Part shown: in pieces, positions 35,426-38,292 of the stretch
Numbering within the stretch: the stretch's first letter is position 1
Layout of the letters: each line of letters opens with the position of its first letter
Assembly (NCBI RefSeq): GCF_028713855.1
Contig: NZ_JAQTNN010000015.1
Span: forward strand, 1 to 64,000
Direction: 5' to 3'
From: Sulfuricurvum sp.
Lineage (GTDB): Bacteria > Campylobacterota > Campylobacteria > Campylobacterales > Sulfurimonadaceae
DNA: 64,000 nucleotides
The notes under the pieces: generated by a model
The model's input: the letters and a program-made list of their open reading frames with translations, nothing else
Databases searched by the model: none
What the model was told of the DNA's origin: nothing
Made by a program: the position numbers and the translations under genes

Positions 35426-35554
35426 ATGTTGAGAGAATTATCACGAAAACTAGCTTTGAAATTTATTAGGTTGATTTGTGAATCAATCTCGGCTAATGAC
35501 ATTCATACTCCGCAACAAAAATTAATTGCAGAGATTATATCTAAATCAGACTAG
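35426..35554 (+). CDS. Possible small ORF (42 aa)
   Basis: A short frame with a GGGAGAGG sequence just before its ATG, coding for a basic helical stretch (LRELSRKLALKFIRLI) and a polar tail. It fills the 170-bp gap between the Abi_2 start and the kinase gene, on the opposite strand, and overlaps the kinase stop by 4 bp. No homology recognised; it may be an antisense or spurious frame. Confidence 0.25.
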   Translation: MLRELSRKLALKFIRLICESISANDIHTPQQKLIAEIISKSD

Positions 35555-36804
35555 TGTAGTCGAATCCGAAAACAGTTCATCCCAGCGGCATAGTGATATT
35601 CGAGTTTATATCCATGTTTTTTGAGGATGGCATTGGTGATATAGAGTCCTAATCCCAACCCGTTCAAAGAACTTTCATAGGTGCGGTTAAAGGGTTTGGT
35701 AAAAGTTCGGTTCTCATCAGGTAAAGGATCGCCCAGCGAGTATATCTCTATCGAATGTCCCAATATTAGAAGCGTCGGTTTGGTATTTGAATATTTAAAG
35801 GCGTTATCGAGGAGATTTTTCAATGCAATCGCGAAAAGTTCAAAATCAACCTTGATGATAAGGGCGGACTCTTCCCCTTTTAGCGTAATATCTTTTTTAT
35901 CGCATAATAATATATCGCAGGTATGATCGAGGATATCCACAAAACGGTATTCTTGGGTGTTAAGATACCACTCACCGCTGCTGAATTTCTCCATTTTAGA
36001 GAACTCGTTTAACAAATAATCCATCCGGTTAAAGATACGTTTGAGTCTCTCTTTGTCTTCGGAGGCATCGATACAATCCGCACTCAAAGAGCCTTTCATT
36101 ATCGGTGTTTTAAGCTCATGCAAAATGTTTCGTAAGAACAGAGAACGTGCTTCTTTCATTGAAGCGATTTTTTCCAGTACCAGATTGAATTCTTGGGTTA
36201 TTTGAGCAATTTCATCTTCGCCGTTGATAGGCATTTTGAGATGAGTATCTCCCTCTTTAAAATGGACAATGGCATTTTTAAGACGCTGAAGGGGGAGCAA
36301 TTTACGAACCAGATAGGCAAAAAAGAGCAAGATCAGCAGATCGATGATGACAACAATGCTCCAAAACGGCACTGTGGATTGGGGTGCCAAATCTTCGATT
36401 GCCACTGAAAAAAATTCACGAGGTGGCAGAAGATGAGGCTCAAATGAATGCTCACGAAATCGATCAAATGGCATTTTCGGAGGGGGCGTGGCTATAAAAT
36501 AGTGCTTATGCTGGTAGTCGATCATTTTTCCGAAAGGCAAAATTCGAACCGTTTCCCCTTCCGAAAGGAGCAGATTTGGGCTGTGTGACGAGACACGGAT
36601 CAGAAGCTGTTTTAGCTCATGATCAAAATTTCCGCTTCGGTGATGGACGAGTCTCTCGGCGAGCATAAAACGTCGTAACTGCTCTTCTTGATATTGCGTG
36701 AGAAAGTATTGATACGCAACCCAAAACAGTACATTGATGAGGGCAAAGATAAAAAAGAAAAAGAGGGTAATGAGCCTCAGGATAGAGTGTTTATTCATTG
36801 ACAA
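35551..36804 (-). CDS. ArsS-type sensor histidine kinase
   Basis: A 417-residue inner-membrane kinase. A first membrane helix (LITLFFFFIFALINVLFWVAY), a periplasmic sensor of about 130 residues, a second helix (FWSIVVIIDLLILLFFAYL), a HAMP segment, the H-box LRNILHELKTPIMKG and an ATPase domain (LKNLLDNAFKYS, GLGLGLYIT). The layout follows the ArsS kinases of Campylobacterota, in which the signal for the Helicobacter protein is acid; the signal here is unknown. It overlaps its response regulator by 14 bp. Confidence 0.88.
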   Translation of the reverse strand: MSMNKHSILRLITLFFFFIFALINVLFWVAYQYFLTQYQEEQLRRFMLAERLVHHRSGNFDHELKQLLIRVSSHSPNLLLSEGETVRILPFGKMIDYQHKHYFIATPPPKMPFDRFREHSFEPHLLPPREFFSVAIEDLAPQSTVPFWSIVVIIDLLILLFFAYLVRKLLPLQRLKNAIVHFKEGDTHLKMPINGEDEIAQITQEFNLVLEKIASMKEARSLFLRNILHELKTPIMKGSLSADCIDASEDKERLKRIFNRMDYLLNEFSKMEKFSSGEWYLNTQEYRFVDILDHTCDILLCDKKDITLKGEESALIIKVDFELFAIALKNLLDNAFKYSNTKPTLLILGHSIEIYSLGDPLPDENRTFTKPFNRTYESSLNGLGLGLYITNAILKKHGYKLEYHYAAGMNCFRIRLH

Positions 36805-37459
36805 ATTTGTATCCTACCCCTCGTACAGAGAGAATAAATTGCGGGTTTTTGGTATCATCGCCGATTTTTTGACGTACACGACCCATGATGACATCGATGC
36901 TTTTGAGACTGCTCTCATATTTGATCGAACCGATATTCATGAGCAGTTCTTCGCGTGAGATGGCGAATCGATCTTTTTTTAGCATGTAAGCAACGATATC
37001 GTATTCAGCTTGGGTCAATCGTAAAACAGAACCGTTTTTACTGATTTCGTGACGTTCGTCATCGACGATAAAGGGAGTTGCTTTTTTAGCCATAGCCGGA
37101 TGAAGACGGCGCAAAATCGCATCGATACGGAAAATAAGCTCTTGCGGATCATAAGGTTTGGGGAGATAATCATCGGCACCGCGTGAAAATCCCATCATTT
37201 TATCCCGTATATCCGAGCGCGCGGAAGAGATTATGATGGGTATAGTGCTTTCTTGACGTATGAGACGGCAAATCTCTATACCGTCCATCTGCGGCAACGA
37301 GAGATCCAGTACCAACAAGTCAAAAGTGCGTGTTTGAAAAAGACTCAATCCATCCAAAGGTGTTGTCGCAATAGTTAGATCGATATTGTCTCTGTAAAGG
37401 CGTGTTTTTAGTAGTTGTGCCAGTTCGATATCATCTTCAATTATTAAAACATTTATCAT
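36791..37459 (-). CDS. OmpR/PhoB-family response regulator
   Basis: A 222-residue regulator from the ATG at 37459. Receiver: IIEDDIELAQLL (acid pocket), phosphorylation site in LVLDLSLPQMDG, the SSARSDI switch and PKPYDPQEL lysine. The C-terminal winged helix ends VRQKIGDD and SVRGVGYKFV. A longer frame from 37531 exists but its extra 24 residues overlap the promoter box. The start follows a TATAAT by six bases without a ribosome site. Partner of the kinase downstream. Confidence 0.88.
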   Translation of the reverse strand: MINVLIIEDDIELAQLLKTRLYRDNIDLTIATTPLDGLSLFQTRTFDLLVLDLSLPQMDGIEICRLIRQESTIPIIISSARSDIRDKMMGFSRGADDYLPKPYDPQELIFRIDAILRRLHPAMAKKATPFIVDDERHEISKNGSVLRLTQAEYDIVAYMLKKDRFAISREELLMNIGSIKYESSLKSIDVIMGRVRQKIGDDTKNPQFILSVRGVGYKFVNE

Positions 37460-37465
37460 AAAACG

Positions 37466-37498
37466 ATTATATCGGGGTAAAAGTAACAAGTAAGTAAC
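37466..37498 (-). promoter_or_regulatory. Response-regulator promoter with tandem 11-bp box
   Basis: On the plus strand AGTAAC (37482-37487) and AGTAAC (37493-37498) repeat with an 11-bp period. Ten bases lie between the box and a TATAAT (37471-37466 on the minus strand), the geometry of a PhoB-type box replacing the -35. The ATG at 37459 is six bases after the -10. The same arrangement occurs before the EF-hand gene, so the regulator probably controls both. Confidence 0.55.
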
Positions 37499-37517
37499 AT
37501 GCCCAAGAGGGGCATGT
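37497..37517 (-). terminator. Hairpin after the EF-hand gene
   Basis: ACATGCCC pairs with GGGCATGT around a 5-base loop, 7 bp past the EF-hand stop. The following sequence is T-rich (TACTTGTTACTTTT) but not a pure T tract. The hairpin touches the upstream half of the response-regulator box. Confidence 0.5.
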
Positions 37518-37523
37518 AGAGAT

Positions 37524-38210
37524 TTAAGCACTGATGCTTAAAAGGGAGGTGGTGTTACTCGAAGCGGCATTGTTACCATACGAAGAGAGAATACTTTTGA
37601 GCAACATGTCACTCAATTTTTGGGATGAGGTATCCGTTTGTGATGCTGTGGAAGAATCGGTTGCGGATGTCGTAGAGTTGTTTTTACCGGACGAATCGGG
37701 TTTAGAATTTTCTAACGATGTTAATAACTCATCGATACTGACAGTACCGTCTTTATTGGTGTCAAGCGCAGAAAAGACATCGCTTGTACTTGAGGTACTA
37801 GAACTGTCTGATGATGCGGAAGAGGAGTCGCTTGGAGGAGGCATTCCGCCCGGTGGTGGAGGAGGCATTTCTCCATCTTTTCCTTGCGGAGGTTCAGGCG
37901 GTTTTGAATTTTTGAGCGCCGTCATAAGTTCATCGGAACTCATGCTTCCGTCACTGTTGGTATCGAGTTTATTGAAAACATCTGTTGCCGACGTACTATT
38001 TGTGTCGGTACTGTTTGAGTTCGATGCAAGTGCCTGCGCCGCTGCGCTAAATTCGGCTTTATCGATCGAACCGCTGTTATCTGTGTCCATTGAACTCAGT
38101 AACTTTTTTGCCAAATCTTCAAAACTCGGTTTATCCATTTGTTTTGTTGAAGATGTCGCTGAAGAACTGTAAGATGAATACGCATTAGTGTAGTTGGAAC
38201 TAACGGTCAT
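37524..38210 (-). CDS. EF-hand calcium-binding protein, Ser/Thr-rich
   Basis: A 228-residue protein with three EF-hand loops: DTDNSGSIDKAE (42-53), DTNSDGSMSSDE (83-94) and DTNKDGTVSIDE (150-161), separated by Ser/Thr-rich linkers and one proline-rich segment (GEMPPPPPGGMPPP). No signal peptide or membrane helix is visible, so it is cytoplasmic or exported by another route. Strong AAGGAG ribosome site. It lies just upstream of a response-regulator gene and carries the same tandem promoter box. Calcium binding follows from the loops; the cellular role is unknown. Confidence 0.85.
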   Translation of the reverse strand: MTVSSNYTNAYSSYSSSATSSTKQMDKPSFEDLAKKLLSSMDTDNSGSIDKAEFSAAAQALASNSNSTDTNSTSATDVFNKLDTNSDGSMSSDELMTALKNSKPPEPPQGKDGEMPPPPPGGMPPPSDSSSASSDSSSTSSTSDVFSALDTNKDGTVSIDELLTSLENSKPDSSGKNNSTTSATDSSTASQTDTSSQKLSDMLLKSILSSYGNNAASSNTTSLLSISA

Positions 38211-38259
38211 GACATACTCCTTGTCGGGTGTAGCAAGATAAATTTCTTACTCGGACATA

Positions 38260-38292
38260 AGCATAAGATGACTAGAGTAACTAATGGGTAAC
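38260..38292 (-). promoter_or_regulatory. EF-hand gene promoter with tandem 11-bp box
   Basis: AGTAAC (38276-38281) and GGTAAC (38287-38292) on the plus strand repeat with an 11-bp period. Ten bases separate the box from a TATGCT at 38265-38260 on the minus strand. Element sequence, period and distance match the box before the response regulator. Confidence 0.5.

Follow-up and report, generated by a model that had tools for sequence, protein, structure and literature searches.

Related regulatory systems

The pho box of Escherichia coli is an 11-bp direct repeat that replaces the -35 element, stands about 10 bp from the -10 element, and serves a regulator of the OmpR/PhoB family. Dimers of this family bind DNA and contact RNA polymerase at such a repeat substituting for the -35, as established for PhoB. 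Sigma-70 promoters of Campylobacterota lack a -35 element and carry a T-rich signal that repeats about every 11 bp. The ArsRS system of Helicobacter pylori is autoregulated, with ArsR repressing itself (PMC9449129), and no clear consensus has been described for ArsR binding, only AT stretches (PMC11162790). In Campylobacter jejuni, MacABC (Cj0606-Cj0608) has been linked to the DccRS regulon (PMC11365321), and for the orphan regulator HP1021 the box KGTWDCD has been defined (PMC8266642).

Two tandem boxes in a Sulfuricurvum locus

In the window, i.e., the whole stretch of 64,000 nt of Sulfuricurvum DNA analyzed here, the genes of a response regulator (RR), a sensor histidine kinase (HK), and an EF-hand protein are neighbors (Table 1). 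The original prediction held that the RR and EF-hand promoters share a PhoB-like tandem box, AGTAAC-N5-RGTAAC, and derived from it that the regulator controls its own gene and, directly, that of the calcium-binding protein. The positions of both boxes, their period of 11 bp, and the gap of 10 bp to the -10 element all proved exact. Because both genes are encoded on the minus strand, the boxes are best read as GTTAC-type repeats: the RR promoter is GTTACT-TACTT-GTTACT-N10-TATAAT and the EF-hand promoter GTTACC-CATTA-GTTACT-N10-TATGCT, with the common core GTTAC-N6-GTTAC. A search of both promoters for a -35 element at spacers of 15-19 bp found none, at most three of six positions matching TTGACA.

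Table 1. Features of the RR-HK and EF-hand locus, with positions in the window.
Feature	Position	Strand	Remarks
ArsS-family sensor histidine kinase (HK)	35551..36804	-	NF038389; HAMP, HisKA, HATPase_c; overlaps end of RR gene
OmpR-family response regulator (RR), 222 aa	36791..37459	-	Pfam Response_reg and Trans_reg_C above cut-off
-10 TATAAT, regulator promoter	37466..37471	-	10 bp from box, 6 bp before ATG; spacing kept in orthologs
Tandem box, regulator's own promoter	37482..37498	-	Plus-strand letters AGTAAC-aagta-AGTAAC; kept upstream of orthologs
Terminator-like hairpin of EF-hand gene	37498..37516	-	CATGCCC/GGGCATG, read from sequence; abuts RR box
EF-hand protein, 228 aa	37524..38210	-	Pfam EF-hand families; in 18/41 genus genomes
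Predicted stem-loop, expected 5' end of EF-hand mRNA	38231..38251	-	AGTAAGA...TCTTGCT
-10 TATGCT, EF-hand promoter	38260..38265	-	10 bp from box
Tandem box, EF-hand promoter	38276..38292	-	Plus-strand letters AGTAAC-taatg-GGTAAC; kept in 18/18 genus genomes with the gene

The epithet "PhoB-like" holds for the architecture, as repeat period, distance to the -10, lack of a -35, and regulator family all agree with the pho box, but not for the sequence or the proteins. The half-site is GTTAC instead of CTGTCA as in E. coli. The RR, which consists of the receiver and winged-helix (Trans_reg_C) domains of OmpR/PhoB-family regulators, scores 136.6 bits against the PhoB model TIGR02154 (cut-off 296.2), and among the NCBIfam equivalog models it meets none. 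The HK reaches only 38.5 bits against phoR_proteo (cut-off 334.2), whereas it passes NF038389, the model of the ArsS family, with 343.3 bits (cut-off 250); the apparent targets of the system, an EF-hand gene and export genes, differ from PhoB-PhoR as well. Membership in a pho regulon is thus excluded by the RR score, the kinase family, and the half-site. The kinase family is shared with H. pylori ArsRS, but the sharp tandem site seen here contrasts with the AT stretches of ArsR. RR orthologs share an almost unchanged DNA-recognition segment, SI(K/R)YESSLKSIDVI, and RR paralogs of 45-55% identity have similar segments. A paralogous ArsS-type system in Sulfuricurvum (L031, L034, L035 upstream of its RR) is preceded by a conserved promoter of another type, which carries ATTAACATC.

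The two promoters would give rise to dissimilar transcripts. The RR start codon lies 6 bp past a perfect -10 (window 37457-37471, minus strand), so that the RR mRNA is probably near-leaderless, unlike the EF-hand mRNA, whose leader spans about 49 nt and which has an evident ribosome-binding site. The predicted stem-loop of this leader has seven pairs, and 126 of 126 cells are paired across 18 aligned leaders; its covariation is weak by itself, as 44 of 500 shuffles were as good. In Sulfurospirillum, EF-hand leaders carry a stem-loop of unrelated sequence at the same place, which suggests a possible mRNA-stabilizing element. The EF-hand protein is rich in Ser/Thr and Pro, has no obvious signal peptide, and ends in a conserved C-terminus (...SLLSISA). 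A terminator-like hairpin equivalent to that of its gene stands at the same place in most orthologs. The hairpin abuts the RR box, which thus sits where a T-tract belongs, and part of the T-richness of the box could therefore serve termination.

Rarity of the box

The original prediction would have been weakened by a box that is frequent at random. This applies to the bare 17-mer, of which the 2.81-Mb Sulfuricurvum genome contains three perfect copies versus two for a reversed-pattern control; lacking an excess, it was rejected as evidence. It does not apply to the box combined with a -10 element at the fixed spacing: the genome scan found exactly two such places, versus none for the controls, and both are the promoters described above. 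In shuffles of the window, a mean of 0.03 such places was obtained with one mismatch allowed.

Further regulon members were sought by pattern searches of the genome. A large genome-wide regulon was rejected, because allowing up to two mismatches yields 17 sites versus 43 for controls. The third exact box (C1:204664; L187, G000:C1:203000-213000) lies before a type I secretion operon, which encodes TolC, an LssB-type ATPase, HlyD, and a large repeat protein. A role as target site of this operon is unsupported: the box is in reverse orientation relative to the operon, no fitting -10 was found at it, and no counterpart was seen at the same place in other genomes. EF-hand paralogs within Sulfuricurvum were also rejected as targets, as their promoters lack the box.

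Conservation of boxes, regulator, and EF-hand gene

Conservation, not rarity, is the decisive evidence for the box as a putative operator. In a protein search, RR orthologs with 78-89% identity were recognized in 16 genomes of the same genus, clearly apart from paralogs (below 56%), and their upstream regions were picked by gene position instead of by motif. In these regions, every EF-hand gene that adjoins the regulator has GTTAC-N6-GTTAC ahead of it, spaced alike from a -10 of the form TA...T. Phylogenetic footprinting shows the EF-hand box in all 18 of the 41 genus genomes that possess the gene. At the regulator's own promoter the box occurs in 16 of these 18, with TGTTACT as outer half and GTTAC or often TTTAC as second half; in the other two (G011 and G035) the first half has decayed to GATAC. 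In these same two genomes the EF-hand gene lies apart from the regulator, on another contig in G011 and at a distance of about 5 kb in G035, and its box is still present. A pattern search of the 41 genomes recovered both sites in the genomes with orthologs and also in G062.

The EF-hand gene and the regulator also occur together. EF-hand genes with 54% identity or more were found in 17 of 17 genomes with a regulator from the protein search and in G062, which was counted as regulator-positive by its boxes, versus none of 21 tested regulator-free genomes (G060 and G061 stand outside the regulator count). The corresponding Fisher value of about 3.5e-11 with 21 regulator-free genomes (2e-11 with 22) is overstated, because the genomes share ancestry and the counts are not independent.

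These patterns bear on the question of whether the boxes are merely the periodic T-rich upstream signal of Campylobacterota sigma-70 promoters, supplemented at the RR gene by a terminator T-tract. Both promoters do lack a -35, and the RR box is T-rich and follows a terminator hairpin. However, in the EF-hand promoter GTTAC is invariant while the spacer and flanks drift, EF-hand paralogs of the same genus have promoters without the box, and the combination of box and -10 is nearly unique in the genome. Such a general promoter signal is therefore a very unlikely explanation, and an operator recognized by a specific regulator is preferred.

The arrangement extends beyond Sulfuricurvum. In most of 24 Sulfurospirillum genomes the EF-hand/box/RR/HK unit recurs with both boxes, and the RR is about 65-70% identical to that of Sulfuricurvum. 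The same unit, again with both boxes, was found in three additional genera (g26, g23, and g60) with RRs 60-80% identical, a range that covers all four further genera. In five Sulfurospirillum genomes, an additional EF-hand gene, unlinked to the unit, also carries the box at identical spacing. In genome G084, the EF-hand, RR, and HK genes are all missing, no close ortholog was found elsewhere, and an orphan relic of an EF-hand-type promoter persists (L223, G084:C11); by this gene content, the three genes were lost together. A chance similarity of the two sites, as might be suspected from the three occurrences of the bare 17-mer against two of its control, is refuted by conservation in the 18 genomes of the genus and in four other genera, and its probability is negligible.

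Preservation of the arrangement in at least five genera makes it very likely that the regulatory link is real, i.e., that the regulator-kinase pair controls its own gene and the EF-hand neighbor through the same site. Hence both consequences drawn in the original prediction, autoregulation and a direct EF-hand link, are strongly supported by comparative genomics, with co-occurrence, co-loss, and the unlinked second boxed EF-hand gene as the main arguments.

The TolC-MacA-MacB operon as a likely third target

Among one-mismatch sites of the Sulfuricurvum genome, the best lies in the promoter of a tolC-macA-macB operon, and sites at this promoter recur in other genomes. Of the readable genomes, 13 of the 17 that have the RR carry the pattern [GT]TTAC-N6-[GA]TTAC there, versus 2 of the 10 that lack it, a count that excludes G019, G033, and G001 with their unreadable starts. 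As for the RR gene, the tolC start codon is 6 bp past the -10 and 39 bp from the box (L112 near 1494-1533), and the tolC mRNA is thus probably near-leaderless too. Two genomes from a family further removed, which have a regulator at 52-54% identity, also contain a boxed TolC-type gene. On this comparative evidence, the operon is a likely third target, one absent from the original prediction. In some tolC promoters the outer half reads TTAAC, hinting at crosstalk with the paralogous ArsS-type system. The end of the tolC-macAB operon encodes a 185-aa protein (L186:1511-2068, minus strand) that begins with MQVNSS and has no NCBIfam match; it is a candidate export substrate.

Boxed TolC operons were also detected in G005 (91% complete) and G008 (81% complete), which have no detectable RR ortholog, so that related sites may be recognized by a regulator paralog whose recognition helix is similar. 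This touches on a broader alternative, according to which all boxes are bound by an HP1021-type orphan regulator or by a paralogous OmpR-family regulator, the adjacent two-component system being merely co-resident. The similar recognition segments of the paralogs would allow this, and the outer half TGTTACT fits the HP1021 box KGTWDCD (PMC8266642). The latter, however, is a single degenerate heptamer, and the inner half-sites KTTTAC fall outside it, which sets the sites apart from the HP1021 regulon. Furthermore, the tandem 11-bp repeat sits at the regulator's own promoter, and EF-hand genes with boxed promoters occur only with this system and were lost along with it. Control by such another regulator is therefore improbable. 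A conserved tandem site at the regulator's own promoter and at its targets is what is expected of an OmpR/PhoB-family tandem operator, and it is what was found for the adjacent RR.

In C. jejuni, which belongs to the same taxonomic order, DccRS (Cj1223c-Cj1222c) is likewise an OmpR-like system with MacABC linked to its regulon; for the present system, motif evidence points to a MacABC-type operon in the regulon. The boxed tolC-macAB promoters together with the MacABC-DccRS link make a DccRS-like role of the present system plausible by analogy. In contrast, no EF-hand target of DccRS is reported in the literature searched, and a search found nothing that joins Sulfuricurvum or Sulfurospirillum with EF-hand proteins.

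Proposed mechanism

Taken together, the comparative data point to an ArsS-family two-component system that very probably governs a small regulon, with the box as its putative operator. We infer that this regulator itself binds the boxes, and directly. The tandem GTTAC-N6-GTTAC/TTTAC box would be the operator of the RR, whose partner would be the adjacent HK. Two phosphorylated RR molecules would bind the half-sites in head-to-tail orientation, spaced by one helical turn, and the bound RR would stand in the place of the -35 and, 10 bp before the -10, touch RNA polymerase; this carries the PhoB-type binding of a dimer to a polymerase-adjacent repeat over to the present RR by analogy. The RR would in this way act as a switch for its own operon with the kinase and for the EF-hand gene, and also for the TolC-MacA-MacB export operon in most genomes having the system. 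We consider this reading as a whole highly probable. With moderate confidence, the regulator can be predicted to activate, at least at the EF-hand promoter, where activation is likelier than repression because the -10 is weak and a -35 is lacking.

A more speculative extension is an export circuit, in which the kinase senses an envelope or calcium-related cue, the RR turns on the EF-hand protein and TolC-MacAB, TolC-MacAB exports the EF-hand protein, and the exported protein feeds back on the sensor. If so, the calcium-binding protein would act outside the cytoplasm. This extension is doubtful.

Implications

The regulon is well supported, of a known kind, and apparently undescribed. It would provide a sharp candidate operator for the ArsS family, for which the 2024 study of H. 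pylori gave no clear consensus site (PMC11162790). The predicted regulon is small, comprising RR-HK, one or two EF-hand proteins, and MacABC, and would be shared by several environmental genera of Campylobacterota. It may thereby open a route into the roles of such bacterial EF-hand proteins and of MacABC-type exporters.
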